DNA of 64,000 nucleotides, taken from Bacteroidota bacterium. Its GTDB lineage: Bacteria > Bacteroidota > Bacteroidia > Palsa-948. The first letter of the stretch is position 1. The number at the start of each line of letters is the position of its first letter. Under the pieces are notes generated by a model. It was not told the DNA's origin. It worked only from the letters and a program-made list of their open reading frames with translations, and made no database searches. The translations under genes and the position numbers were made by a program. This document shows positions 16,407-31,280 of the stretch, in pieces. The stretch covers positions 1 through 64,000 of the forward strand of contig JACRAM010000088.1 in NCBI GenBank assembly GCA_016213405.1, in the 5' to 3' direction.

Positions 16407-17279
16407 ATGAAAAAATTTAAAATCATTGTTCTGGCGAAGCAAGTTCCCGATACAAGAAACGTGGGCAAAGACGCTATGAAAGCGGATGGAACTGTAAACA
16501 GAGCCGCATTGCCTGCCATCTTTAATCCGGAAGATTTGCACGCACTTGAACAGGCGCTCTCCATCAAGGATAAATTTCCAGGCAGCACAATTACTTTGCT
16601 CACGATGGGTCCTATCCGCGCGGTGGAAATTATTCGCGAAGGCTTTTACCGCGGAGCCGATGACGGAATTCTTCTTACAGACCGCGCTTTTGCCGGCTCT
16701 GATACGCTCGCTACTTCCTACGCGCTTGCCTGCACCATAAAAAAAATAAAAGAGTTTGATATTATTCTCTGCGGGCGACAAGCCATTGACGGTGACACAG
16801 CGCAAGTGGGACCTCAGGTTGCAGAAAAATTAGGCATTCCTCAAATCACGTATTCAGAAGAAATAATGTCTGCTTCATCAGAAAAAATTGTTGTGAAGCG
16901 AAGATTGGAGCGCGGTATTGAAATTGTTGAATGTTCTTTGCCCGTACTGATTACTGTGAATAGCTCAGCCCCCGTATGCAGACCGAGAAATGCAAAACTT
17001 CTGATGAAATACAAACACGCAAACACAATGAGCAAACGCCAGGAAAGCGTTGAAGATTATATGAGCGGAGGAAATGATTCATACCTCACAATAAAAGAAT
17101 GGAGCGTGAACGATATTGAATGTGACCGCGAGCAACTTGGAATTGGCGGCTCACCGACAAAAGTGAAAAAAGTTGACAACATTGTTTTTCAATCAAAAGA
17201 ATCAAAACGCATTGAAGATATGGATGAAGATATTAATGGATTGATGAAAGAACTAATCACAGCACATATTGTTGGATAA
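16407..17279 (+). CDS. etfB: Electron transfer flavoprotein subunit beta
   Basis: EtfB with EtfA carries electrons from acyl-CoA dehydrogenases to the quinone pool. The 290-residue protein begins KIIVLAKQVPDT, and the AMP-binding signature GRQAIDGDTAQVGPQVAEKLG is clear. It is longer than the roughly 250 residues of mitochondrial-type EtfB; the extra part is C-terminal. It is followed after 52 bases by etfA and then an acyl-CoA dehydrogenase gene, so the three probably form one functional unit. The 144-base stretch upstream holds no clear consensus promoter. Confidence 0.95.
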   Translation: MKKFKIIVLAKQVPDTRNVGKDAMKADGTVNRAALPAIFNPEDLHALEQALSIKDKFPGSTITLLTMGPIRAVEIIREGFYRGADDGILLTDRAFAGSDTLATSYALACTIKKIKEFDIILCGRQAIDGDTAQVGPQVAEKLGIPQITYSEEIMSASSEKIVVKRRLERGIEIVECSLPVLITVNSSAPVCRPRNAKLLMKYKHANTMSKRQESVEDYMSGGNDSYLTIKEWSVNDIECDREQLGIGGSPTKVKKVDNIVFQSKESKRIEDMDEDINGLMKELITAHIVG

Positions 17280-17331
17280 TAAAGACCACATCATTGTAAG
17301 AATTAATAAGTAGCTGCTAATATTATAAAAT

Positions 17332-18351
17332 ATGAATAACGTTTGTGTTTACTGCGAACTGGAAGAAGGAAAAATTTCTGAAGTAAGTTTTGAACTTCTC
17401 ACTAAAGGACGCAATCTTGCCGATCAATTGAAGTGTCAACTGGAAGCGCTTCTGATTGGTCATAATTTGGATGGTTTTGAAAAAGAAATTTTTCCTTACG
17501 GTGTGGATACACTTTACCTTGCTGATGATTCCCGTCTTGAGCCGTATTCTACTCTGCCTCACACAGAAATAACTGTCAGACTTTTCAGAGAACAAAAGCC
17601 ACAGATTGTGTTGATGGGAGCAACGTCTATCGGGCGAGATTTAGGTCCGCGTGTTTCCTCCGCACTCGGAAGCGGTCTCACTGCTGATTGCACTGAATTG
17701 GAGATTGGTGACCACGAAGAAAAAAAAGAAAAAAAAGTTTACAAAAATCTCCTCTATCAGATCCGTCCAGCTTTCGGAGGAAACATCATTGCGACCATCA
17801 TAAATCCAGATTGCCGTCCGCAAATGGCAACCGTTCGCGAAGGTGTGATGAAAAAAGAAATTTACAATCTCCGCCACACAGGAAAGATCGTTAAACTGGA
17901 TGTAAAAAAATATGTGGACGATGAATGTTTTATCGTAAAAATTCTTGAGCGGCACATTGAAAAATCAAAAGTCAATATTAAAAATTCATCCGTGATTGTT
18001 GCCGGTGGTTTTGGCGTTGGCTCCGCAGAAAACTTTAAGTTGCTTCATAACCTCGCTTCCATGCTTGGCGGAGAAGTGGGAGCTTCACGTGCGGCAGTGG
18101 ACGCAGGGTTTGCCGGACATGAACGGCAAATCGGACAAACAGGAATAACCGTTCGCCCGAAACTTTATGTCGCCTGCGGAATCTCGGGACAAATACAACA
18201 TCTTGCCGGCATGCAGGAATCCAGCATTATCATTTCCATTAACAACGATCCGAATGCTCCTATAAATAAAATTGCAAACTATGTGATTGCCGGGAAAGTC
18301 GAAACTGTAATTCCAAAAATGATCAGATACTATAAAGAAAATACAAAATAA
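17332..18351 (+). CDS. etfA: Electron transfer flavoprotein subunit alpha
   Basis: The 339-residue protein has an N-terminal alpha/beta domain and the FAD-binding C-terminal signature of EtfA. This includes RAAVDAGFAGHERQIGQTG, TVRPKLYVACGISGQIQHLAGM and NDPNAPINKIANYVI. It is the FAD-carrying partner of the upstream EtfB. Only 17 bases separate it from the acyl-CoA dehydrogenase gene. Confidence 0.96.
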   Translation: MNNVCVYCELEEGKISEVSFELLTKGRNLADQLKCQLEALLIGHNLDGFEKEIFPYGVDTLYLADDSRLEPYSTLPHTEITVRLFREQKPQIVLMGATSIGRDLGPRVSSALGSGLTADCTELEIGDHEEKKEKKVYKNLLYQIRPAFGGNIIATIINPDCRPQMATVREGVMKKEIYNLRHTGKIVKLDVKKYVDDECFIVKILERHIEKSKVNIKNSSVIVAGGFGVGSAENFKLLHNLASMLGGEVGASRAAVDAGFAGHERQIGQTGITVRPKLYVACGISGQIQHLAGMQESSIIISINNDPNAPINKIANYVIAGKVETVIPKMIRYYKENTK

Positions 18352-18368
18352 AACTAACGAATAGAAAA

Positions 18369-20075
18369 ATGCCAAACTTCTACACCGATAACGCTGACAT
18401 CAAATTTCACCTTGCACATCCGCTCATGCAGCGAATTGTCGCACTGAAAGAAAATAATTTCAAAGAGAAAGATGATTATGAATTTGCGCCTAAGGATTTT
18501 GAAGACGCGATGGACAGTTACAGCCAGATTCTTGAAATTATTGGAGAGATTTGCGGAGATATTATCGGTCCCAATGCAGAATCGGTTGACCACGATGGAC
18601 CTGTTTTGAAAAACGGAAGAGTTGAATATGCAAGAGGCACAACAGAAAATATTGAAGCCATCACCAAAGCAGGTTTGATGGGCATTGCTCTTCCCCGCAG
18701 ATTCGGTGGATTAAATTTTCCTATGATTCCTTATATCATGGCTGCCGATATTGTTTCACGAGCCGATGCAGGTTTTGTGAACATCTGGGGCTTGCAGGAT
18801 TGCGCGGAAACAATAAATGAATTTGGCTCTGAGGAACAGAAGCAGCGTTTCCTCACACGTGTTTGCAAAGGAGAAACAATGGCAATGGCGCTCACAGAAC
18901 CCGATGCCGGTTCTGATTTGCAGGCAGTGATGCTCAAAGCGCATTACGATGAACAAAAAAAATCATGGCTCTTGAATGGTGTGAAACGTTTCATCACCAA
19001 TGGCGATGGAGATATTTCTCTTGTGCTTGCCCGTTCGGAAGACAGAACACAGGATGCTCGCGGGTTATCCATGTTTATTTATGACAAGAACAGCGGGGGT
19101 GTTGCTGTAAGGCGAATAGAAAATAAATTGGGTATCAAAGGTTCTCCTACCTGCGAATTGGTTTTCAAAGATGCGCCTGCTGAAATCTGCGGAAACAGAA
19201 AATTCGGATTGATAAAATATGTGATGTCGCTGATGAATGGCGCTCGACTTGGAATTACTGCACAATCGGTGGGTCTGAGCGAAGCCGCTTACCGCGAAGC
19301 GCTCTCCTATGCAAAGAAAAGAATTCAGTTTGGCAAACCGATTATACAATTTCCTGCAGTGTATGAACTTCTTTCCCTGATGAAAGCAAAACTCACTGCT
19401 TCACGCTCTTTGCTTTACGAAACCGGACGCTTTGTAGATATTTACAAAACTCTCATTCATATTTCACAAGTGAGGGAATTAACCAAAGAAGAAAAAGATG
19501 AACTGAGAAAATATCAGAAGCTTGCCGACATTTTTACACCCCTTGCAAAAGGATTGACTTCAGAGTATTGTAACCAGATTGCGTATGACGCTTTGCAGAT
19601 TCATGGAGGTTCAGGTTTCATGAAAGATTATCCGATTGAACGGATTTACCGCGATGCGCGGATTACTTCCATATATGAAGGAACCACACAACTGCAGGTG
19701 GTGGCGGCAATTCGCGGAGTTACCGCAGGAGGATACCTTGCGCAGATTCAGGCATACGAAAAAGAACCCATCAAGCCGGAAACTGAATCGTATAGAAAAA
19801 TTTTAATTGAGATGACCGAAGAATACGAAGAATCAGAAAATAAAGTTGTTCTTACTGACAGCAATGAGTTCATAGATTTTCACGCACGCAGATTAGTTGA
19901 AATGGCAGGAAATATTATTATGGGTTATCTTTTGCTGGCAGATACGCAGCGCGATCACAACTACTGGAAAACACTTGAAGTATTTTTACGCATGGCTCGC
20001 TCACATAATAAATCCAACTCAATTCGTATTCTGCATTCTAACCTTAATGACATGGGAAAGTTTCGATATGAATAG
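18369..20075 (+). CDS. Acyl-CoA dehydrogenase, long form
   Basis: This FAD enzyme oxidises acyl-CoA to trans-2-enoyl-CoA and should pass electrons to the EtfBA encoded directly upstream. The FAD/substrate signature ALTEPDAGSDL is at about residue 176. The second family signature QIHGGSGFMKDYPIER-YRDARI is at about residues 415-437, and the catalytic-base region is SIYEGTTQLQ. At 568 residues it exceeds the usual 380. The extra C-terminal helical region (about 455-568) is common in larger bacterial acyl-CoA dehydrogenases. It may serve beta-oxidation of dicarboxylyl-CoA products of the phenylacetate pathway; that is inferred from context only. It converges on paaE with a 12-base gap. Confidence 0.93.
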   Translation: MPNFYTDNADIKFHLAHPLMQRIVALKENNFKEKDDYEFAPKDFEDAMDSYSQILEIIGEICGDIIGPNAESVDHDGPVLKNGRVEYARGTTENIEAITKAGLMGIALPRRFGGLNFPMIPYIMAADIVSRADAGFVNIWGLQDCAETINEFGSEEQKQRFLTRVCKGETMAMALTEPDAGSDLQAVMLKAHYDEQKKSWLLNGVKRFITNGDGDISLVLARSEDRTQDARGLSMFIYDKNSGGVAVRRIENKLGIKGSPTCELVFKDAPAEICGNRKFGLIKYVMSLMNGARLGITAQSVGLSEAAYREALSYAKKRIQFGKPIIQFPAVYELLSLMKAKLTASRSLLYETGRFVDIYKTLIHISQVRELTKEEKDELRKYQKLADIFTPLAKGLTSEYCNQIAYDALQIHGGSGFMKDYPIERIYRDARITSIYEGTTQLQVVAAIRGVTAGGYLAQIQAYEKEPIKPETESYRKILIEMTEEYEESENKVVLTDSNEFIDFHARRLVEMAGNIIMGYLLLADTQRDHNYWKTLEVFLRMARSHNKSNSIRILHSNLNDMGKFRYE

Positions 20076-20087
20076 TCTGTGTACGAC

Positions 20088-21152
20088 TTAAATATCGTAA
20101 TCCACCTTCACCACGGGCGTGAGCGGATGACTTTGACAGGTGAGAACGAATCCTTCGGCAACTTCAGAATCAGTGAGCGCGAAATTCTTGTTCATGTGAA
20201 CTTTCCCTTCCAGGATTTTTCCTCGGCACGTAGCGCACACAGCTCCTTTGCAGGCGAAAGGAGCGTCCACACCATTTTCAATCGCTGCGTCAAGAATTGA
20301 TTTTCCGTCAGATGAAAGCTTAAAAGTGGTTTCTATTCCGTATTGAGAAACAGTAACCTGAGATATTATTTTTTCCGAAGGAGAAATAACTTTATCAGGC
20401 GCGTCAACGGAGGAAGTAAAATACTCAATATGAATTCTTGCTTTGTCAATTTTCCTTTCTTCCAGCGTTTCGCGCACATTATCCATCATTGGTTTTGGAC
20501 CGCAGATAAAAAATTCATTGTCAGTTGACGGAATAATATGTTTATCAAAAAGAGCTTTTGCTTTTTCTTTGGAGATGATTCCTTTATAAAGTTCTTCAAC
20601 CTGTGTAGTGGGTTTGTCAAAAATATAATGCAACTTGAATCTAGAAGAATTTTTCTGCGCGAGTTCGTCTAATTGCTTTTTAAAAATAGTTGATTCTTCA
20701 TTCAGGTTTCCGTAAAATAAAATGAGAGAAGAATTTGGTTCGGCTTGAAGAACCGTTTTTATAATAGACAACATTGGAGTGATTCCGCTTCCGCCAGCAA
20801 ACAGAGAATATTTTTTTTTGTGTAAAGCATTCATCGGAGAATAAAAACCGCCCATCGGAGTCATCACTTCTATTTCATTTCCAACTTTCAGGTTATCGTT
20901 AACGAAGATTGAACCCTTTCCACCTTGCACTTTCTTCACAGCCACGCGCATTTCATTTTCAAGAGGAGAGCTGCAAACAGAATAACTTCTGCGGATTTCT
21001 TCTCCGGCAAGAAAAAGTTTCAGCGTGAGATATTGTCCCTGTATGAATTTATATTCTTCTTTCAAAGAAGCCGGAACGTCAAACGCAACAGAAACACAGT
21101 CTGCGGTTTCCTTTCGGATATCTGATACTTTAAGTTTGTGAAATTTTGTCAT
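20088..21152 (-). CDS. paaE: Phenylacetyl-CoA epoxidase reductase subunit PaaE
   Basis: PaaE passes electrons from NAD(P)H through FAD and a plant-type [2Fe-2S] cluster to the di-iron epoxidase PaaABC(D). The 354-residue protein has the FAD motif RSYSVCSSP (near residue 55), the nucleotide-binding GGSGITPMLSIIKTVL and CGPKPMM. The C-terminal ferredoxin domain has FACKGAVCATC and a final LTCQSHP cysteine. The architecture, with the [2Fe-2S] domain last, is that of PaaE/PaaK. It lies 7.5 kb from paaABCD and on the opposite strand, directly downstream of the hydrogenase-4-like cluster. Confidence 0.9.
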   Translation of the reverse strand: MTKFHKLKVSDIRKETADCVSVAFDVPASLKEEYKFIQGQYLTLKLFLAGEEIRRSYSVCSSPLENEMRVAVKKVQGGKGSIFVNDNLKVGNEIEVMTPMGGFYSPMNALHKKKYSLFAGGSGITPMLSIIKTVLQAEPNSSLILFYGNLNEESTIFKKQLDELAQKNSSRFKLHYIFDKPTTQVEELYKGIISKEKAKALFDKHIIPSTDNEFFICGPKPMMDNVRETLEERKIDKARIHIEYFTSSVDAPDKVISPSEKIISQVTVSQYGIETTFKLSSDGKSILDAAIENGVDAPFACKGAVCATCRGKILEGKVHMNKNFALTDSEVAEGFVLTCQSHPLTPVVKVDYDI

Positions 21153-21186: not shown

Positions 21187-21939
21187 TCACTTCCTTTTTC
21201 TAATCAATTCTAATACTCCGTTAATAAAGGTGAGAGGGTGTATTGGATTTCCCGGAATGTACAAATCAATTTTGTATTGGGTTAAAAAAATTCTGTTCAA
21301 TGCAGGGCTGTCTGCAAAAACTCCTCCGCTGATAGCGTCAGTTCCTGCTAGAATAATTATTTTAGGTTCAGGAGTAGCGTCATAACAAATCTGCAATGGT
21401 TCCGCCATATTTTCTGAGATAGGACCAGTAATTACAATTCCATCTGCATGGCGGGGCGAAGCGACAAACTCGATTCCGAATCTTCCCATATCAAAGTTCA
21501 CATTACTGCAGGCGTTGAGTTCTAATTCACAACTATTATCTCCACCGGCTGACACTTGCCGTAACTTGAGCGAACCACTGAAATATTTTGAGATTTCTTT
21601 TCGTATTAAATCAGGATTCAGAATGATATTTTTTTCTTCTCCTTCTTTTACAATTAATCCATCGCGAAAGTTCGTTGAAAGTTTGTAATCTTTTGTAAAT
21701 TTTATTTTGTCAGGAAAAGCAAAAGCACATTCCCCACAGAAAGTGCATTTTCCCAAATCAATGCTCACAGGATTTTTTGCGATAGAATTTGTAGGGCATA
21801 AATCAACTAATTTATCATCATCAACCTTTTCATTGCTGATTACAGGTCTGCCACGAAAAATTCCCGGAACTTCTGCTGTAGTTATATCGGGAATGAATTG
21901 TTTTCCTTGATGAATGAGTATTTTAAAATTATCAAGCAT
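21187..21939 (-). CDS. Degenerate HyfH-HyfI fusion: ferredoxin domain plus NuoB/hydrogenase small-subunit-like domain
   Basis: The C-terminal half (about residues 125-250) matches the hydrogenase-4 / NuoB-like small subunit, with FVASPRHADGIVITGP, ATPEPKIIILAGT and YKIDLYIPG. Its [4Fe-4S] ligands are mostly lost. The CxxC becomes D134-N-S-C137, the third cysteine is D201 (AGTDA) and the fourth is N231 (IPGNP). The N-terminal half is a HyfH/NuoI-like ferredoxin domain. It keeps C48 (LCP) and C65/C68/C71 (CTFCGEC), enough for one cluster, but lacks the other four ligands. The gene is last in a six-gene set with the order of hyfBCEFG-I. It most likely belongs to an energy-converting hydrogenase-related (Ehr) complex rather than a true hydrogenase. 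Confidence 0.82.
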   Translation of the reverse strand: MLDNFKILIHQGKQFIPDITTAEVPGIFRGRPVISNEKVDDDKLVDLCPTNSIAKNPVSIDLGKCTFCGECAFAFPDKIKFTKDYKLSTNFRDGLIVKEGEEKNIILNPDLIRKEISKYFSGSLKLRQVSAGGDNSCELELNACSNVNFDMGRFGIEFVASPRHADGIVITGPISENMAEPLQICYDATPEPKIIILAGTDAISGGVFADSPALNRIFLTQYKIDLYIPGNPIHPLTFINGVLELIRKRK

Positions 21940-21951
21940 AGTTTTTCATTA

Positions 21952-23448
21952 TTACAAATCGTGCCCGCAGTAACTCAAATTAAAACTTTTATTAACAACA
22001 GGAAAATCTGAAATTTCGTTATTGCGTACTGCTAATGCGAGCGCCAGCCAATTGTGAAATGACGGATCTTTAATTTTGTAATGCACCAGTTCTCCTTTTT
22101 CATCCGTAACTGCACAATGGCAGATTTCTCCTCTCCATCCTTCCACTAATGAAATTGCAAATGAATTTAGTGAAGGCGAAGACAAATTCTTTCTCTCCTT
22201 ATTTTCTTCGGGAATATTTTTTAGTAATTTTTTGATATACCCGATGGACTGCTTAATTTCTTCCTCGCGAATTTGTACGCGTGAATAAACATCTCCGTGA
22301 TTTTTTATAACCGGCTGGTGATTCAATGAAGAATAAAAATCGTGAGGATGGGTAGAACGAATATCTCTCACAATGGCACTCATCTTCGCTGACATTCCAA
22401 CTGTTCCAATGGAAGATGCCTGTTGATGTGTAACAGCACCTGTTCGTTCAAAGCGGGCTAAAACAGTTGAAAGTGAAAAGGACTCTTCGCACATCTCTAT
22501 AAAATCTCTTTCAAACTCATCAAAAAGTTTGTAAAGCTTATCATTTAATTTTTTGCTGAACGGAAAATTATTTCTACCCGGACGAATCAATCCTTTAGCA
22601 AGGCGGTTTCCACACCAAATCTGGAAATAATTTATCACAGGAGTACGTAATCTTCCAAAGACAACACTGCCGAGTTGGTAAGCGATATCGGTGCAAAGCG
22701 CACTCAAATCCCCAGTGTGAATAGCAATTCTTTCCAACTCAAGTGCAAGCGTACGAGTGAACTGCAAATCTTTATCTGCACTGAAATTGCAGAGAGATTC
22801 CCATAGATTTACGAAGGCAGTTGTATGCCCAGCAACTGTATCGCCAGAGATGTTTTCTGCAAGAGTTACACGCTGCAAAAGTTTCTTATTCTCAAGGAAA
22901 AGATTCTCAATTCCTCTATGCTGAAATCCTAATTGAATTTCCAGATGAAGAATTTGCTCCCCATTACAGATGAAACGGAAATGTCCCGGTTCAATCACCC
23001 CTGCATGGATGGGACCAACTCCTACTTCATGCAATTCTTCGCTGTCAATTTTATAAAATGGATAATTTGAAATAGTGTTTTCTTTATTGGTTCTGTCAAA
23101 AGAAAAACGAACTGGTTTAAGCCATGTATGATTTAAATATTTTATTCCAAAGTTTTCATGCATTTCTCTTTCAAATTTTTCAAAAGCAAAGTGATGATGA
23201 GTGAATGAAAGCAGTGTCTCATTCATATTTATATGAGATGAAGAAACATAAATACTTCCATCGTTATCATTCGCAATACAACAAATCAACTTTATTTTCC
23301 CATCGGAATGAAATCCATAGTAGTTCACACAATGATTTTGAGATTCTTTCAAGAGGGAAGTATTGTGCTCTAAAAATATTTCATACTCCAGAACCGGTAT
23401 GGATGCCAGCGGAATGCACTGATTATTTTTGATATCAATATAATTCAT
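21952..23448 (-). CDS. HyfG-like (NuoCD-type) large subunit lacking [NiFe] cysteines
   Basis: The 498-residue protein has a NuoC-like N-terminal domain (about 1-115) and a NuoD/hydrogenase large-subunit domain (about 135-498). Conserved family features remain: VGVGPIHAGVIEPGHFRF, LGFQHRGIE and SVEGWRGE-like SLVEGWRGEICHC. The cysteine pairs that hold [NiFe] are absent. The N-terminal CxxC position reads ISGDTVAGH (about 200-208), and the C-terminal DPCxxC reads DPSFHNW (461-467). It therefore cannot bind a classical [NiFe] centre. That loss is the hallmark of Ehr-type complexes. The start overlaps the upstream gene's stop by one base. Confidence 0.85.
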   Translation of the reverse strand: MNYIDIKNNQCIPLASIPVLEYEIFLEHNTSLLKESQNHCVNYYGFHSDGKIKLICCIANDNDGSIYVSSSHINMNETLLSFTHHHFAFEKFEREMHENFGIKYLNHTWLKPVRFSFDRTNKENTISNYPFYKIDSEELHEVGVGPIHAGVIEPGHFRFICNGEQILHLEIQLGFQHRGIENLFLENKKLLQRVTLAENISGDTVAGHTTAFVNLWESLCNFSADKDLQFTRTLALELERIAIHTGDLSALCTDIAYQLGSVVFGRLRTPVINYFQIWCGNRLAKGLIRPGRNNFPFSKKLNDKLYKLFDEFERDFIEMCEESFSLSTVLARFERTGAVTHQQASSIGTVGMSAKMSAIVRDIRSTHPHDFYSSLNHQPVIKNHGDVYSRVQIREEEIKQSIGYIKKLLKNIPEENKERKNLSSPSLNSFAISLVEGWRGEICHCAVTDEKGELVHYKIKDPSFHNWLALALAVRNNEISDFPVVNKSFNLSYCGHDL

Positions 23449-24872
23449 TACGGCAGATTTATTATTGCTTCATTGATTAATTCCATCATCTGAACAGGCG
23501 GATTAAATCCCAGATAGATTACCAGTCCCATCAAAATGAATTGAGAAAATGATTCATATCCATTTATTTTTTCTATGCCTTCTTCCATAAAATCTTTTGC
23601 AGGAGTGAACAGGAGTTTGAAAATATTTTTTCCGAATGCCCAGATAATGACTACCAGTAAAATTAAAATCAATATCAAAACAAACACATAATGTCCTTCA
23701 AACAAGGAACGAAAAATCAAAAACTCACTCACAAAAAGTCCAGATGGCGGCATGGCAGTGGAGCAAATAAATCCAAGCAGCAGAACCATCGCACCGGAAA
23801 AATTGTGCTTGAAATAATTTCCAGTATCATAAATATTTTTGCTTTTGTAAATTCTGTAAACCTGTCCGATCTGGAAAAACATTCCCGACTTAGCAAACGA
23901 ATGTAATACAGTGTGAAGAATTGCCGCATAATAACCGATTCCTCCCGCTGCGAGTCCGAGCATCACGATTCCCAAATGTTCAACGCTGGAGTACGCGAGC
24001 ATTCGTTTTATATTTTTTACCTTGAGCATGTAAACTGCTGCGACAAAAACTGAAAGTGTACCTGAAATGATAAGAATATTACTTGCCCATGCGTGAAGAG
24101 ATGTGTGCACAATCACTTCGTAAAAACGGAATATACCTATGAAACCAACATTCATCAGTGCGCTGGAAAAAAGTGCACCTGCGGGGGAAGGAACTTTGTC
24201 TTTCGCGTCAATGCCTGCGTTATACATCGGTACAAGCCCCGCCTTGACAGTGAATCCCGTGAAAGCAAAAATAAATGCGAGCCGCATCCAAAATTCATTG
24301 AGTGATGCAGCGTGTGCCATCAGTGATGCAAAGGATAAATCGGTAGTGCCGCTTTGCCGCAGTGCAATACTTAGAAAAAGTATGCCGATAAAAACCAGCG
24401 TGATACTAATTGAACAAACAAAAATATATTTCCATGTTCCCTCGAGCGAGCGAATGTTTCTGCGGTGATATACCAACGCAGACGCAGACAGTGTAGTAAG
24501 TTCGATGAACACCCACGTAACCGCTATGTGAGAAGAAAGATACGCAGCGCTCATAGCCATGATTAAAATTATCATCGCGGAAAAATAAATTGCACGCTGT
24601 CTCGGGATTTCTATGTGCTTTGTGAAATAAATATAGCTATGATAAATCGCTGGAATGCTGATGATGTTCAGTGTGACGAGAAGAATGATGGACAAGGCAT
24701 CCGTCCTGAATAATCCTAACTCCTCATGATTGAGATGGGTGTAGGCAAAAACCGTAAGTGCGCATTGAAGAATAAGAAACAGCGCAAGCAAAAAATAATT
24801 TACTCCACGATGCCGGTTGAAAAAAATTATTCCACTTAGAACACCCGATGTAATTAAATATGCCGTTATCAT
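23448..24872 (-). CDS. HyfF-like proton-translocating membrane subunit (NuoN/NuoM-like)
   Basis: The 474-residue, strongly hydrophobic protein has about 13-14 transmembrane helices of the Mrp-antiporter / complex I type. The helix-5 glutamate is kept in TWVFIELTTLSA, and the helix-7 lysine in FTVKAGLVPMYNA. SVEHLGIVMLGLAAGG and HSFAKSGMFFQIGQVY are further family signatures. Among hydrogenase-4 subunits it fits HyfF by position and sequence style. It is tightly packed in the operon, one base after the next upstream gene. Confidence 0.85.
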   Translation of the reverse strand: MITAYLITSGVLSGIIFFNRHRGVNYFLLALFLILQCALTVFAYTHLNHEELGLFRTDALSIILLVTLNIISIPAIYHSYIYFTKHIEIPRQRAIYFSAMIILIMAMSAAYLSSHIAVTWVFIELTTLSASALVYHRRNIRSLEGTWKYIFVCSISITLVFIGILFLSIALRQSGTTDLSFASLMAHAASLNEFWMRLAFIFAFTGFTVKAGLVPMYNAGIDAKDKVPSPAGALFSSALMNVGFIGIFRFYEVIVHTSLHAWASNILIISGTLSVFVAAVYMLKVKNIKRMLAYSSVEHLGIVMLGLAAGGIGYYAAILHTVLHSFAKSGMFFQIGQVYRIYKSKNIYDTGNYFKHNFSGAMVLLLGFICSTAMPPSGLFVSEFLIFRSLFEGHYVFVLILILILLVVIIWAFGKNIFKLLFTPAKDFMEEGIEKINGYESFSQFILMGLVIYLGFNPPVQMMELINEAIINLP

Positions 24873-24873
24873 A

Positions 24874-25503
24874 TTAATCTCGCAGCGCTTTTAATTGTTC
24901 AACATCCACATCTTTTATTACATCTCCGATTTTATTCACAAAAATCCCAAGAAGGAGAATGCTCACAAAAATATCGAGCAGAATTCCAGTATTCACCAGC
25001 ATAGGCATTTCGCTTCCCACAGCGAGTGATAGAATGAACACACCGTTTTCTAAAACAAGATATCCCATCACGTGCGTTATAATTTTTCTGCGCGTAACAA
25101 TAATGTAAAGTCCCGTAAACAATGTTGAGAGCGCTACAACAAAAAATATTTTATTGATACTATTTCCCTCAATAGCAGAAGAAAGAATGTACGAAAGCAC
25201 AATAATGCCTGTAATGATTATCAGGGAGAAAAAATTATGAAGATATGGTTCTGCTTCACGAGTGATTCTATTTCGCTTCATGATATAATTCAAAAACCAG
25301 GGAACGGCAATAGCTTTAAAAATGATTGTCTCAAGCAGGATGAAAATTAAATTAACAATGTTGATTTCAATTAGGTTGATAAACGCTATTCCGAAAAGTA
25401 GAATTCCCTGAAAGGCGAGTATTTTCACATAAGTAGATAATCGTTTTAAAATACCTATATAGGGAAGCGTAATGATGAAAGTTATAAGTAAAACATTTGT
25501 CAT
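24874..25503 (-). CDS. HyfE-like membrane subunit (NuoK-like)
   Basis: The 209-residue protein has about six transmembrane helices and resembles HyfE, whose C-terminal half is NuoK-like. GYLVLENGVFILSLAVG keeps the membrane-embedded glutamate typical of NuoK. LLETIIFKAIAVPWFLN carries another buried charged pair. One base separates it from the HyfF-like gene, and one base from the HyfC-like gene upstream. Confidence 0.8.
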   Translation of the reverse strand: MTNVLLITFIITLPYIGILKRLSTYVKILAFQGILLFGIAFINLIEINIVNLIFILLETIIFKAIAVPWFLNYIMKRNRITREAEPYLHNFFSLIIITGIIVLSYILSSAIEGNSINKIFFVVALSTLFTGLYIIVTRRKIITHVMGYLVLENGVFILSLAVGSEMPMLVNTGILLDIFVSILLLGIFVNKIGDVIKDVDVEQLKALRD

Positions 25504-25504
25504 T

Positions 25505-26410
25505 TCATATGAGATTATTTTTTATTAACAGAATCCCAATAAAAATCAGAAGTGCTACAGACGACAACGTAAAAATGAACTGCGGATTATGATTCATTCT
25601 GAAACGAGCCATGAATGATTCTATCAGGCCGATAATAACAGCGAAAAATAGTTGCACAGCAATAAATATTATTATGTCAACATAAACCGAAAGACCTCCG
25701 AAGAAAAAGTTTGCGATGAGCGCCCCGTACATTGCAAATTTTAAATTGCCCGTATAAAAAATCAATCCAAGATCAAATCCGCTGTTGTCGAGAATCATCA
25801 CTTCGTGAATCATGGTGAGTTCAAGATGTGTTTTCGGGTCATCCACGGGCATTCGGCTGTTTTCAATCATCGCGAACATTACCAGCAGGTAAGCCGCCAG
25901 CGCACCGATTGCATAAGAGATGTATGAACCGAAATGAAGTGAAGCAAAGAAATCGCTGAAAGAAGTATGTCCCGTCATCAGCGCAAAACAACCGATGAGA
26001 ATGAAAAATGCCGGCTCCGCGAGCATGGAATACAATGCCTCGCGGCTAGCTCCCATTCCTGAAAAACTGCTACCGGTGTCGAGAGAAGAAATTATCATGA
26101 AAAATTTTCCTAAGGCGAGAACATAAGCGAAAAATAAAAAGTCGCCATCAAAAGAAATAATGCCTTTGTGACTGCCGAAAGGAATCACAAGAATTGCAGA
26201 GAGAACTGAAGCAAAATAAATGCTGGGAGCGATTTGAAAAATAATGCTGGAAGTTTTGCTATACACAGCTCCTTTTTTCCATAACCTGAAAATATCTTTC
26301 ATCGGCTGGAAAATTCCCGGACCTTTTCTGCCCGAAACAATGCTTTTGGTTCGGATGATGATTCCTGAAAAAATCAAACTGACAAAAAGTATCATTACAA
26401 AACAAATCAT
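25505..26410 (-). CDS. HyfC-like membrane subunit (NuoH-like)
   Basis: The 301-residue protein has about eight transmembrane segments. It carries the group 4 hydrogenase NuoH-like signature SRMPVDDPKTHLELTMIHE followed by MILDNSG, with its acidic residues intact. GRKGPGIFQPMKDIFRLWKK matches the N-terminal amphipathic segment. In complex I this subunit links the peripheral arm to the antiporter-like subunits. It starts four bases after the HyfB-like stop. Confidence 0.88.
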   Translation of the reverse strand: MICFVMILFVSLIFSGIIIRTKSIVSGRKGPGIFQPMKDIFRLWKKGAVYSKTSSIIFQIAPSIYFASVLSAILVIPFGSHKGIISFDGDFLFFAYVLALGKFFMIISSLDTGSSFSGMGASREALYSMLAEPAFFILIGCFALMTGHTSFSDFFASLHFGSYISYAIGALAAYLLVMFAMIENSRMPVDDPKTHLELTMIHEVMILDNSGFDLGLIFYTGNLKFAMYGALIANFFFGGLSVYVDIIIFIAVQLFFAVIIGLIESFMARFRMNHNPQFIFTLSSVALLIFIGILLIKNNLI

Positions 26411-26414
26411 ATCA

Positions 26415-28448
26415 CTAGTTTTTTAAGAATGACAATAATGAATTAAATGCATCTGAAATGAAAGGGAAAAAAATCACAAGCAAAATAAAAATTACTCCGT
26501 ACAAAATATAATGTTGTGCATTTCCGCTCTGAAGAAAAGAAAATCTTTCAAGAAATTTTTTCAGCAAAAAGATAATTCTGTCAATAAATTTTTCTTCCAG
26601 TTTATCCTGAGGATGCGTTTCGTAAGAAGCAGTATGCGGAAAAATTCCTACCACTTCCGTTTCCTTTTTATGAAGCGATATAATCGGCTTAACTAATTTT
26701 CTGTAAGAACGGATAAACGAATTTGCCGTGTATTGCATTTTACCAGCATCTCCCACATAGCCGCAACCCCAGGTAGGTGAAATAGTTTGCCGTTTGTTCA
26801 GAGTGATTCTGCTTCTTAAAAAGAAAATTAAGCCGCAGAGTAGTATAAATCCTGCTGAACAGATTCCTACAATGGTCATTATGTTTAGAGTGCCGGGAAA
26901 AATATCAGATTCAATCGGTGAATTTATTTTCGCAGTGAACATCATTACAGGCGCAGAAAGCAATCGCACAAAAAATTTTGGATAAATTCCTATTGCTAAA
27001 ATCAATGCCAACACCATATACATAGGAATAAGTTTTCCGGTTGAAGCTTCCTGTGGTTCGTGATTAAGTGGGTGGCGGGGAGTTCCGAGAAAAACTATTC
27101 CAAATGCTTTTGTGAAACATAAAACTGCCAACCCACCAATAAGAACTAATCCAAGAATGGAAAAAATCATTGATAAAATTGAAACGGAATAATTTCCAGC
27201 GAGCCCTTTGAACAATCCCGAGTATATTAAAAATTCAGAAATGAAACCGTTGAAGGGCGGAAGCCCGCAGATAGAAAGCGCAGCTACTAAAAATAAAATC
27301 GATGTATGAGGCATTCGTTTGATAAGTCCACCCAATTGTTCCACATTCATTGTGTGTGTGGCTTGATAAACATTTCCAGCACTGTAAAATAAAAGTGATT
27401 TGAAGAGAGAATGATTCAGCACGTGAAGCAATCCTCCTGCAAATCCGAGAGAGGCGAGCAAATGATTTCCCGTTCCAACACCAATACATCCAAGCCCGAT
27501 TCCTATTCCGATGATACCAATATTCTCAATGCTGTGATAAGCCAGCAATTTTTTCAAATTGTGCTGAATGATGGCAAGTATCACTCCGTAAATTCCTGAA
27601 ATCACCGAGATGAAAAGAATGAAATATCCCACTACAGTATAATCAGTGTGAATGAGAAAAAGCATTCTCAAAATCCCGTAGATGCCGATTTTGATAATGA
27701 TGCCTGACATCACGCCCGAAATATGCGAAGGAGCAGCGGGATGCGCATACGGAAGCCAGGTGTGAAACGGAACAAATCCTGCCTTGAATGCAAACCCGAT
27801 GAAGAAACATAAAAATAAAATTATTCCAACCAACGTAGGTTTCTCCAATGAAAAACTTGTGATGGAAGAAAAATCATACGAGTTAGTTTGTGAAGCCACC
27901 CAGATAAATGCGATGGTGAGAAAAAAAACTCCGATGTGTGACTGAATGAGAAAATTAATTCCAGCTTTGAGCGTTTGTTTTTTTGTATGTTCAAAAATTA
28001 TCAACACAAAAGAAGCAAGTGTCATGATTTCCCATATGAGGAGAAACATTAAACTATTTTGAACACAGCAAACAGACAAAAGCGAAACGTGCATCAGTAT
28101 GTATGAAATCCAATGCAGAGAAGTATTTGCCTTTTGTTCTTCATACGGTTTCATATAGAAAATTCCGTAGAGAGCGCCAGTGATAGCAGTGAAATTGATA
28201 AGGAGAATAAACCATGCGGAGAGCGCGTCAATGCTGATATGAATGTTTCCGAAAAAATAACTACTCTGAAAGTCAGCTTCTATCGAATAGCTACTCAAAA
28301 CAACCACAGCTTCATATGAAGATAAAATAGCAATCAGTAAAACAATTAAAAAGTTGACAATGGATTTTAGTTTGGGAAGAGAAAAAGGAACGATGATTAT
28401 TCCTACAATAGAAATTAAAATCGTTGCAAGAAGAATCCTCTCATTCAT
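26415..28448 (-). CDS. HyfB-like proton-translocating membrane subunit (NuoL-like)
   Basis: The 677-residue protein is the first gene of the cluster. It has about 14 antiporter-type helices plus a C-terminal extension. Functional residues of proton-channel subunits are visible: the helix-5 glutamate in LLIWEIMTLASFVL, lysines in GFAFKAGFVPFHTWLPYAHPA and SGIIIKIGIYG, and histidines in HVLNHSLFKSLLFYSAG. SWTWGCGY-like TISPTWGCGYVGDAGKMQYT near residue 560 is the C-terminal signature of HyfB proteins. Ion translocation should therefore be possible in the membrane arm. Confidence 0.88.
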   Translation of the reverse strand: MNERILLATILISIVGIIIVPFSLPKLKSIVNFLIVLLIAILSSYEAVVVLSSYSIEADFQSSYFFGNIHISIDALSAWFILLINFTAITGALYGIFYMKPYEEQKANTSLHWISYILMHVSLLSVCCVQNSLMFLLIWEIMTLASFVLIIFEHTKKQTLKAGINFLIQSHIGVFFLTIAFIWVASQTNSYDFSSITSFSLEKPTLVGIILFLCFFIGFAFKAGFVPFHTWLPYAHPAAPSHISGVMSGIIIKIGIYGILRMLFLIHTDYTVVGYFILFISVISGIYGVILAIIQHNLKKLLAYHSIENIGIIGIGIGLGCIGVGTGNHLLASLGFAGGLLHVLNHSLFKSLLFYSAGNVYQATHTMNVEQLGGLIKRMPHTSILFLVAALSICGLPPFNGFISEFLIYSGLFKGLAGNYSVSILSMIFSILGLVLIGGLAVLCFTKAFGIVFLGTPRHPLNHEPQEASTGKLIPMYMVLALILAIGIYPKFFVRLLSAPVMMFTAKINSPIESDIFPGTLNIMTIVGICSAGFILLCGLIFFLRSRITLNKRQTISPTWGCGYVGDAGKMQYTANSFIRSYRKLVKPIISLHKKETEVVGIFPHTASYETHPQDKLEEKFIDRIIFLLKKFLERFSFLQSGNAQHYILYGVIFILLVIFFPFISDAFNSLLSFLKN

Positions 28449-28598: not shown

Positions 28599-28606
28599 TA
28601 TCTTTA
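28599..28606 (+). promoter_or_regulatory. Putative -7 promoter element for paaABCD
   Basis: TATCTTTA matches seven of eight positions of TAnnTTTG (last base A). If it is used, transcription starts after the ATG at 28606, which favours the ATG at 28630 as the paaA start. Confidence 0.35.
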
Positions 28607-28629
28607 TGTTCGCATTAAAATTATTAAAA

Positions 28630-29568
28630 ATGGACGCTTCACAATTTGAAAATAATTTCGAAAGCAAACTTTCGCGCAATGAAAACATTGAGCCCAAGGA
28701 TTGGATGCCTGAGATTTACCGCAAGCACCTCATCCGTCAGGTTTCCCAGCATGCTCATTCTGAAATTGTGGGCATGTTACCCGAAGGAAACTGGATTACG
28801 CGTGCTCCGAGTTTGCGTGCAAAAATGGTTCTCACTGCAAAAGTTCAGGATGAAGGAGGACACGGATTGTATCTGTACACAGCTGCTGAGTCGCTAAATA
28901 TTTCCCGCGAAGAACTTCTTAATCAACTTCACACGGGCAAAGCAAAATATTCTTCCATCTTTAATTATCCTACTTTATCGTGGGCAGATATTGGCGCAAT
29001 CGGATGGTTGGTGGATGGCGCTGCGATTATGAATCAGGTGATGTTACAAAGAACTTCTTACGGCCCGTATGCGCGGGCTATGGTTCGCATTTGCAAGGAA
29101 GAAAGTTTTCATCAGCGACAGGGATATGAAATTATGTGCAAGCTTTCTGCAGGAACAAAAGAGCAAAAAGAAATGGCGCAGGATGCAGTTAACCGTTTCT
29201 GGTGGCCTACGCTGATGATGTTTGGCCCGCCCGATGCTGAGTCATCTAATTCTGAAAATGCAATCAAGTGGAAAATAAAACGCGAGAGCAACGATCAGTT
29301 ACGGCAGCGTTTCGTGAATCAAACTGTTCCACAGGCGGATATTATCGGATTGAAAATTCCTGACAAAAATTTAAAATGGAATGATACAAAACAAGGGTAT
29401 GATTTCTCTGAACCCGACTGGAAAGAATTTCAGAATGTGATTCACGGAAACGGTCCCTGCAATAAAGAAAGATTAGGCGCACGCGTACAAGCCCACGAAA
29501 ACGGAAGATGGGTTCGTGAAGCAGCTATGGCGTTTGCAGAAAAGAAAAAACAAAAAGTAGCAGCGTAA
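28630..29568 (+). CDS. paaA: Phenylacetyl-CoA 1,2-epoxidase catalytic subunit PaaA
   Basis: PaaA is the di-iron oxygenase subunit that epoxidises the aromatic ring of phenylacetyl-CoA. The 312-residue protein has the four-helix ferritin-like core. Iron ligands are visible in [14 protein letters not shown] and in [35 protein letters not shown] and [16 protein letters not shown] are strongly conserved in PaaA. An upstream ATG at 28606 adds eight residues but overlaps the putative promoter, so [10 protein letters not shown] is taken as the start. It is first in the order paaABCD. Confidence 0.95.
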
Positions 29569-29592
29569 GAAAATTCAAAAGTCAAAAGAAAA

Positions 29593-29889
29593 ATGGCAAA
29601 TACAAAAGACAGCCAAGGACAACTTTGGGAGGTTTTCGTGCAAAAAAAACCAGGACTCCCCTATGTTCACTGCGGAAACCTTCACGCATTCGACAAGGAA
29701 ATGGCTTTGCAAAATGCACGCGATGTATATACGCGCAGAAGCGAAGGCACTGCTATATGGGTTGTTCCCTCTTCAGCAATTGTTGCAAGTTCTCCAGAAG
29801 ATATCGGTCCTTTCTTTGAACCTGCAAATGATAAAGTGTTTCGCCATCCTACTTTTTATAAACTGCCGGAAGAAATTAAACATATGTAA
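29593..29889 (+). CDS. paaB: Phenylacetyl-CoA epoxidase structural subunit PaaB
   Basis: PaaB is a small subunit needed for assembly of the epoxidase. The 98-residue length and the motifs LWEVFVQKKPG, VHCGNLHAFDKEMALQNARDVYTRR and GTAIWVVPSSAI match the family. It starts 24 bases after paaA. A hairpin-forming repeat of about 60 bases separates it from paaC. Confidence 0.94.
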   Translation: MANTKDSQGQLWEVFVQKKPGLPYVHCGNLHAFDKEMALQNARDVYTRRSEGTAIWVVPSSAIVASSPEDIGPFFEPANDKVFRHPTFYKLPEEIKHM

Positions 29890-29893
29890 TGTG

Positions 29894-29953
29894 TTTGTCA
29901 TGTTGAGCGAAGCGAAACATCTATAGATTCTTCACTTCGTTCAGAATGACAAA
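29894..29953. repeat. Inverted repeat family F (TTTGTCATTCTGA type) between paaB and paaC
   Basis: TTTGTCATGTTGAGCGAAG and its imperfect reverse complement ending CAGAATGACAAA form a long hairpin within the paa operon. The in-frame ATG at 29946 lies inside it. A half copy occurs at 62878-62906. This is a widespread Bacteroidota repeat type. Confidence 0.75.
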
Positions 29954-29963
29954 AGAAAAGAAC

Positions 29964-30722
29964 ATGACAACACAAGAAGCACTTTTCAATTATTTACTAA
30001 GACTTGGAGACACAAGTTTGATTCTCGCCCAACGCAATGCTGAATGGTGCGGGCACGGTCCGTTTCTTGAAGAAGATTTAGCGCTTACAAATATTTCCCT
30101 TGACTTGCTCGGGCAGGCAAATTCAATTCTGCTTTACGCAGGAACAGTGGAATGCAAAGGAAGAAGCGAAGATGATCTGGCGTTTCATCGCACAGAAAGA
30201 GAATATTACAATACGCTCTTGACTGAACAGTCGAACGGAGATTATGCAAAAACAATTCTCCGTCAGTTTTTGTGTGATGCATTTGATTTTTATTTTTATT
30301 CTGAACTGGTAAAAAGCAAGGATGAAACACTTTCTGCAATTGCTGCTAAGTCAATAAAAGAAATCACCTATCACTTACGCCACACCTCTTCATGGGTTGA
30401 ACGATTAGGTGATGGCACGGAAGAAAGCCACACACGAATGCAAAACGCGCTTGATGAACTCTGGAGATTCACCGGGGAAATGTTTGAGATGAATGAAGTG
30501 GATTCTGTTTTGATTAAAGAAGGAATCGCAGTTGATTTGAAATCCGTTCAGCCAAAATGGGAAAGCAAAGTGAAAGAAATTCTGGAGCGTGCTACGTTGA
30601 AAATACCTGCGAATGCTTTTATGCAGAGAGGAAGTCGTGATGCAAAACATACGGAGCATTTAGGTTTCATTCTTGCTGAGATGCAATCGTTGCCTCGGTC
30701 ACTTCCTGATGCAAAATGGTAA
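29964..30722 (+). CDS. paaC: Phenylacetyl-CoA epoxidase structural subunit PaaC
   Basis: PaaC is the ferritin-like partner of PaaA in the epoxidase core. The 252-residue protein starts MTTQEALFNYLLRLGDTSLILAQRNAEWCGHGP, which is typical of PaaC, and ITYHLRHTSSWVERLGDGTEESH is conserved. The reading frame extends to an ATG at 29946, but those bases belong to a repeat. The ATG at 29964 follows a purine-rich stretch and gives the expected N-terminus. Confidence 0.93.
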   Translation: MTTQEALFNYLLRLGDTSLILAQRNAEWCGHGPFLEEDLALTNISLDLLGQANSILLYAGTVECKGRSEDDLAFHRTEREYYNTLLTEQSNGDYAKTILRQFLCDAFDFYFYSELVKSKDETLSAIAAKSIKEITYHLRHTSSWVERLGDGTEESHTRMQNALDELWRFTGEMFEMNEVDSVLIKEGIAVDLKSVQPKWESKVKEILERATLKIPANAFMQRGSRDAKHTEHLGFILAEMQSLPRSLPDAKW

Positions 30723-30723
30723 T

Positions 30724-30757
30724 AGCCCCCTCCTAACCTCCCCCATTGGGGGAGGAA
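30724..30757 (+). repeat. Palindromic repeat family A between paaC and paaD
   Basis: AGCCCCCTCCTAACC is followed by the hairpin CTCCCCC-ATT-GGGGGAG, immediately after the paaC stop. It fills the 39-base gap before paaD. Confidence 0.88.
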
Positions 30758-30761
30758 TTAT

Positions 30762-31280
30762 ATGAAAACACAAAAAGAAATACTTGTAATTCTCTCCGAA
30801 ATTCCTGATCCGGAAATTCCCGTAATCAATATTAAAGAACTAGGAGTTCTTCGTGATGTGATTGTGAATGGAAATGAAGTAGAGATTATCATCACTCCAA
30901 CGTACTCAGGTTGTCCTGCGATGAAGCAGATTCAAGATGACATTATTTCTGCTATGAAAAAGAACGGAATTGAAAACACGAAAGTAAAAATGGTTTATCA
31001 TCCGGCTTGGACTACCGATTGGATTACTGATGAAGCAAAAGAGAAACTTAAAAAATATGGCATTGCTCCTCCAGAAAAATGCATTAAGGATTTAGGATTA
31101 AGGAATAAGGATTTTTCAATCCCAAATCCCAAATCCTTAATCCTTAATAGGAGTATTGCCTGTCCTCAGTGCGGCTCTGAGAATACTGAAATGGTTTCAC
31201 AGTTCGGTTCAACGGCTTGCAAAGCTCTTTATAAATGTTTGGATTGCAAAGAGTCGTTTGATTATTTCAAGTGCCACTGA
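30762..31280 (+). CDS. paaD: Phenylacetyl-CoA epoxidase maturation/iron-sulfur subunit PaaD, with repeat-derived linker
   Basis: PaaD has an N-terminal MIP18/DUF59 domain (about residues 1-105, with IPDPEIPVINIKELGVLRDV and TPTYSGCPAM). It also has a C-terminal four-cysteine zinc-ribbon-like tail (CPQCGSENTEMVSQFGSTACKA and CLDCKESF). It is thought to help assemble the epoxidase metal centre. Residues of about 108-130 (KDLGLRNKDFSIPNPKSL) are the translation of a family B repeat at 31085-31150, inserted in frame between the two domains. The protein (172 residues) is slightly longer than usual for this reason. Confidence 0.93.
   Translation: MKTQKEILVILSEIPDPEIPVINIKELGVLRDVIVNGNEVEIIITPTYSGCPAMKQIQDDIISAMKKNGIENTKVKMVYHPAWTTDWITDEAKEKLKKYGIAPPEKCIKDLGLRNKDFSIPNPKSLILNRSIACPQCGSENTEMVSQFGSTACKALYKCLDCKESFDYFKCH
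31085..31150. repeat. Repeat family B, in frame in paaD
   Basis: An inverted repeat of TTAGGATTAAGGAATAAGGA and AAATCCTTAATCCTTAAT lies between the MIP18 domain and the cysteine motif of PaaD. It is closely related to the copies at 15079-15141 and 37741-37804. Confidence 0.85.

Follow-up and report, generated by a model that had tools for sequence, protein, structure and literature searches.

How does a small subunit of the complex I superfamily stay conserved once the ligands of its N2 cluster have gone, and what could a complex built around such a subunit still do? The question is raised by a minus-strand gene in a 64,000-nucleotide stretch of Bacteroidota DNA (the window), which encodes a ferredoxin-like domain (HyfH/NuoI-like, with one cluster; residues 1 to 110) fused to a NuoB/HyfI domain (residues 111 to 250; Pfam Oxidored_q6, E 3e-19). 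The codons of the ligand positions, read on the DNA, lie as follows.

21187..21939, minus strand: fused small subunit (HI), 250 aa, ferredoxin domain plus NuoB/HyfI-like domain
21796..21798, minus strand: C48, retained N6b-type [4Fe-4S] ligand; Cys in 151/151 fused proteins
21745..21747, minus strand: C65, ligand of the retained cluster; Cys in 151/151
21736..21738, minus strand: C68, ligand of the retained cluster; Cys in 151/151
21727..21729, minus strand: C71, ligand of the retained cluster; Cys in 151/151
21538..21540, minus strand: D134, first N2 ligand position (Cys in relatives); D in 87/87 homologues
21529..21531, minus strand: C137, the sole cysteine left at an N2 position; A, N, or V in 6/87
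21337..21339, minus strand: D201, third N2 ligand position; D in 87/87
21247..21249, minus strand: N231, fourth N2 ligand position; N in 86/87

These codons agree exactly with the earlier note, which had placed D134, C137, D201, and N231 at the four N2 positions and had named C48, C65, C68, and C71 as the only ligands left in the ferredoxin domain. The contexts of the N2 positions were SAGGDNSCELEL, GTDAISGG, and IPGNPIHP in this protein versus SAGGCNGCELEL, GACAISGG, and IPGCPPHP in proteins of the Cys type; they are unambiguous, and misalignment of the N2 positions was ruled out on this ground. Sequencing or assembly error was also ruled out, since the substitutions occur in many independent assemblies, including those of isolates. 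The solved structures closest to the small subunit were MbhJ (6cfw), HycG (7z0s), and PSST/NuoB of complex I. In the AlphaFold2 model of the small subunit (mean pLDDT, 89), residues 110 to 249 matched Escherichia coli HycG (7z0s) with a Z score of 15.1 and an rmsd of 2.5 over 139 residues. Other NuoB proteins, 2 in the same genome and 25 from relatives, had cysteines at positions 137, 201, and 231, and the fourth cysteine of these 27 proteins was that of an adjacent CC motif.

Which of the two clusters remains in the ferredoxin domain was assessed by comparison with complex I. In two-cluster ferredoxins, the last cysteine of motif I pairs with the CxxCxxC of motif II. Variants of NDUFS8 affect Cys153, Gly154, Ala159, and Val162, and Ala159 adjoins mature Cys126, a ligand of N6a (PMC9783039). 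For the motif CIYCGFCQEACP to fit that numbering, Cys126 must be the fourth cysteine of motif II, which makes the retained quartet that of N6b; N6a, considered as a candidate for the retained cluster, was dropped on the same numbering. The N6a/N6b residue table of PMC8357420 seems to agree. By homology, then, the retained cluster is of the N6b type, the neighbor of N2, and both N6a and N2 are gone. The distances from N6b to N2 and from N2 to the quinone site in complex I are each about 10 to 12 angstroms, and the usual limit of electron tunneling is 14 angstroms. With N2 missing, the chamber should exceed that limit and so lie out of tunneling range of N6b, as judged from the complex I distances.

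We compared 151 fused proteins among the homologues collected on genome contigs and in whole Bacteroidota genomes. The ferredoxin quartet was cysteine in every one of them, which upholds the earlier view that the loss was clean and not random decay, the retained ligands forming a complete quartet. The N2 quartet was D-x-D-N in 87 Bacteroidota homologues (D134 and D201 in all 87, N231 in 86) and all-Cys in the 64 others (62 complete proteins plus 2 fragments with Cys wherever readable); no intermediate quartets were seen among the 151 proteins. C137 was kept in 81 of the 87 and was otherwise Ala (3), Asn (2), or Val (1). It was the least conserved of the four positions, and by these counts the replacement residues D134, D201, and N231 are more conserved than the leftover cysteine. 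The only small-subunit sites fixed differently between the groups were 134, 136 (Gly to Ser), 201, and 231, with position 72 at 93%. Synonymous variation was present at the ligand codons (GAT/GAC, with 46 GAT and 38 GAC at position 134, and AAT/AAC). The median dN/dS (Nei-Gojobori) was about 0.05 for the NuoB domain and 0.16 for the ferredoxin domain, and the six subunits of the complex had values of 0.04 to 0.10, figures that are approximate because the sequence pairs used have a dS of about 1. As judged from these ratios, the NuoB domain is under strong purifying selection despite the loss of the N2 ligands. The low ratio and the synonymous changes at the substituted codons themselves are in line with the selection proposed earlier. 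Decay would have been indicated by substitutions in this genome only with raised dN/dS; what we found was 87 homologues from many Bacteroidota families with a single origin.

In two trees, the D-x-D-N proteins grouped together as a single clade (support, 100/99) nested among all-Cys proteins, and on these trees the replacement arose once in Bacteroidota. The fusion of the ferredoxin and NuoB domains predates the loss of the N2 ligands in the tree. Loci of the clade were labeled Chitinophagaceae, Flavobacteriaceae, Bacteroidales, Sphingobacteriaceae, Saprospiraceae, and Fulvivirgaceae, and isolates with the N2-less complex include Niastella vici, Flavihumibacter profundi, and Chryseolinea serpens. 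Occurrence was patchy, at 3 of 7 genomes of the window's genus and 5 of 40 genomes of the first sample (the window's genome included). The clade lacked the N6a ligands throughout. Of 52 all-Cys relatives, 16 (L037, L144, and L198 among them) had lost these ligands in separate events but kept N6b and N2. One contig labeled Candidatus Marinimicrobia (L078) carried a D-type complex nested among Bacteroidota, the result of either a binning error or transfer.

Six genes lie close together on the minus strand in the hydrogenase-4-like order B-C-E-F-G-HI, which is conserved in the homologues, and the small-subunit gene comes last. Upstream of HI, the window holds the following features.

21952..23448, minus strand: large subunit, HyfG/NuoCD-like (EhrL), without [NiFe] cysteines
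22969..23034, minus strand: beta1-beta2 chamber loop of the large subunit; 18/22 positions conserved in both groups
23448..24872, minus strand: HyfF, antiporter-like subunit
24874..25503, minus strand: HyfE/NuoK-like membrane subunit
25505..26410, minus strand: HyfC/NuoH-like membrane anchor subunit
26415..28448, minus strand: HyfB, antiporter-like subunit

Relatives of the large subunit include HycE, MbhL, and, in complex I, the 49-kDa subunit. Both [NiFe] cysteine motifs (CxxC) are missing from it (ENISGDTVAGH at L1 and SFNLSYCGHDL at the C terminus), and the paired [NiFe] cysteines were absent from the large subunit in all relatives examined, in three groups. Searches of this genome (95% complete; controls positive) gave no match for HypD or for a classical [NiFe] large subunit. 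The features that define group 4 [NiFe] hydrogenases (Hyc/Hyf/Ech/Mbh) are thus lacking, the four [NiFe] cysteines and hypD being absent. Ehr is defined as a group-4-hydrogenase-like complex whose large subunit is without both [NiFe] CxxC motifs, its function is termed unknown or merely suspected, and the N2 ligands, which most relatives have, are not part of the definition (PMC4378227, PMC10284858, PMC6349859). Since the locus has this gene set and no [NiFe] cysteines, the six-subunit complex is, by its sequences, an Ehr (energy-converting-hydrogenase-related) complex and not a hydrogenase. The earlier suggestion that HyfH and HyfI functions are joined in one chain holds (fused, 250 aa), but the Hyf name does not. 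The founding paper on Ehr is that of Marreiros et al. from 2013. In the open literature searched on Ehr or on loss of the NuoB cluster, that founding paper lying outside it, no description of an N2-less Ehr was found; the family is known and the N2-less variant, conserved in a large clade and met again in two other phyla, is apparently new, its priority not being certain because of that scope.

The Ehr complexes of Geobacter sulfurreducens (GSU0739-45), Sulfobacillus, and Nitrospira have the same subunit set with antiporter-like subunits and no [NiFe] cysteines; unlike in those, the small subunit here carries a fused ferredoxin domain, and its N2 and N6a ligands are gone. Formate hydrogenlyase and hydrogenase-4 (Hyc, Hyf; 7z0s) have the same fold and subunits and gave both the best structural match for the NuoB domain and the best large-subunit sequence match, whereas here there are no [NiFe] or N2 ligands and no adjacent formate dehydrogenase gene, and the HycF and HycG functions are in one chain. 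Homologous NuoB, NuoCD, NuoH, NuoK, and antiporter-like subunits are shared with complex I, but the operon has no NuoEFG homologue, N2 and N6a are missing, and the quinone-site His and Tyr are not conserved in the alignment. Another complex I relative that lacks [NiFe] is the sulfane sulfur reductase MBS (6u8y), whose proximal [4Fe-4S] cluster also has changed ligands, being bound by only three cysteines (PMC7684303); MBS keeps the cluster and uses it catalytically, whereas at most one cysteine remains here. Mrp antiporters have antiporter-like membrane subunits in common with this complex and need no electron relay, but MrpA-G lacks the NuoB/NuoCD arm, which here is present and strongly conserved.

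Conservation extended to the chamber and the membrane arm. The N2-less and N2-bearing groups were alike at 18 of 22 positions of the beta1-beta2 loop of the large subunit and at 14 of 21 positions of its C terminus; K285 and K382 were nearly fixed in the N2-less group, and the N2-bearing group has Arg and Leu. Apart from the lost [NiFe] site, the large subunit showed no recognizable cofactor-binding motif. Conserved transmembrane Glu and Lys residues, as expected of an ion-translocating complex, were found in the antiporter-like subunits: the membrane motifs WE, KAGF, IIK, and SEF were conserved in HyfB, and HyfF had its membrane Glu and Lys conserved but Asn for the usual Lys of TM8. Most pump residues were retained across the four membrane subunits (HyfB, HyfC, HyfE, and HyfF), and HyfC kept its acidic loop. 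Most D-type relatives (for example, L045, L049, L064, L068, and L117) have an additional HyfB/NuoL-like gene (about 670 aa, 43 to 50% identical) upstream of hyfB, which is missing at this place in the window's genus.

We also compared plasmid-borne Ehr small subunits from other phyla. All four N2 cysteines were kept in those of Variovorax, Caballeronia, Burkholderia, Azospirillum, Rhizobium, and Methylocalor. The N2 positions were T/D/E/S in Allomeiothermus silvanus and N/D/D/A in Mycobacterium branderi (one sequence each); in both, the N6a ligands were gone, the N6b quartet was kept, and two acidic residues stood at N2 positions. A single clade of all N2-less proteins was rejected (AU test, P = 2.7e-6), with long branches as a caveat, so N2 was lost at least three times on that tree. 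In Azospirillum, Rhizobium, and Methylocalor (L216, L217, and L218), the small subunit was short and NuoB-like with the N2 cysteines and without a fused ferredoxin domain. The DNA examined around it held no ferredoxin gene either, and this may be a further case of a truncated relay. On the Variovorax plasmid (L213), two Ehr-like clusters lay about 3 kb apart, one of them with a fused small subunit.

As the alignments stand, the N2 relay is abandoned under selection, with the arm, the chamber loops, and the membrane part retained, and the conserved complex probably works without the usual electron wire. The reading that we favor, which we hold to be evenly poised between right and wrong, is an ion-translocating or gated complex not driven through N2, in which carboxylates replace the cluster and N6b is structural or sensory. 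The relay into the chamber between the small subunit, the large subunit, and HyfC would have been removed with N6a and N2, N6b being kept. An all-Cys [4Fe-4S]2+ site has a net charge of -2, which the two aspartates could mimic (an argument from charge, not from coordinates); standing in for both the charge and the packing of the cluster, they would preserve the fold and the position of the coupling loops. The membrane arm would still move or exchange ions, driven or gated by a ligand or proton that binds in the conserved chamber instead of by electrons through N2, and the lone N6b cluster may be structural or a redox sensor. This reading is favored by the all-or-none N2 quartets, the single origin, the low dN/dS, the missing [NiFe] cysteines, the largely kept pump residues, and the shared chamber loop, and also by the separate N2 losses in A. 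silvanus and M. branderi, each with two carboxylates. Against it, conserved coupling loops would also fit a redox-active chamber with a diffusible donor, HyfF has Asn for the TM8 Lys, N6b might still carry electrons by an unforeseen route, and both convergent cases are single sequences. A bolder version, for which we have only tentative confidence and which we regard as doubtful, is a complex-I-superfamily machine without electron input, in which N2 was swapped repeatedly, in different phyla, for two charge-mimicking carboxylates and ion movement was coupled to a non-redox chamber event.

Three serious rivals to the favored reading were weighed. Another metal might have replaced N2, with D134, D201, and N231 (usually plus C137) binding mononuclear Fe, Mn, Zn, or Ca, so that a relay from N6b through the metal to the chamber, or a structural metal, persists. 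Three strictly conserved O/N ligands stand where one cluster had three cysteines, and C137 is kept in 81 of 87 homologues; however, T/D/E/S and N/D/D/A share two acidic residues only and no common ligand set, C137 is replaceable by Ala or Val, and a site of hard ligands would be a poor low-potential electron relay, which leaves this rival unlikely. Alternatively, the chamber could be redox active and receive electrons straight from a diffusible carrier (quinol, flavin, or a small molecule) and not from ferredoxin via Fe-S clusters. The chamber loops kept as in N2-bearing relatives, and the absence of [NiFe] ligands from Ehr in every group examined, are consistent with such a donor, but the large subunit has no recognized cofactor-binding motif beyond the lost [NiFe] site and no conserved oxidoreductase gene is adjacent; we consider it quite unlikely. 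Mrp relatives function without any soluble arm, and the two antiporter-like subunits here have conserved charged residues, so the complex could be a cation/proton antiporter like Mrp with the soluble arm as an assembly scaffold only and the chamber functionless. A scaffold should drift more, however, and the large subunit and NuoB domain are strongly constrained, chamber loops included, which makes this third rival distinctly improbable.

Fe-S clusters with one Asp ligand are known. An Asp/Asn-ligated [4Fe-4S] or other Fe-S cluster still held at the N2 site could also be likened to the three-cysteine proximal cluster of MBS (PMC7684303), but with at most one cysteine left, and none at the N2 positions in 6 of 87 homologues, we judge it very improbable. 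Simple decay of an unused subunit, to which the loss of three of four N2 ligands might point, was rejected as next to impossible given near-invariant replacements in 87 homologues, one origin, a dN/dS of 0.05, and a conserved operon.

Ehr is found in several phyla, and the N2-less lineage is a natural knock-out of its electron relay. Because N2 has been discarded in a conserved Ehr lineage, models in which ferredoxin feeds quinone or another acceptor via N2 cannot hold for that lineage. Work on complex I gains an evolved relative whose coupling loops and pump arm are open to study in the absence of N2 redox chemistry. Since isolates carry the N2-less complex, electron-free operation of the superfamily is directly testable.

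No dedicated electron-donor gene and no conserved oxidoreductase gene was found near the operon: no flanking family occurred in more than 4 of 70 loci, and paaE adjoined the operon only in the window's genus. In the window, the operon lies between paaE (20088-21152, minus strand) and paaABCD (28606-31280, plus strand), an arrangement also found in L135 (same genus) and partly in L050 and not elsewhere. On the plus strand at 16407-20075, genes for EtfB, EtfA, and an acyl-CoA dehydrogenase follow one another, a set like that of clostridial acryloyl-CoA reductase.
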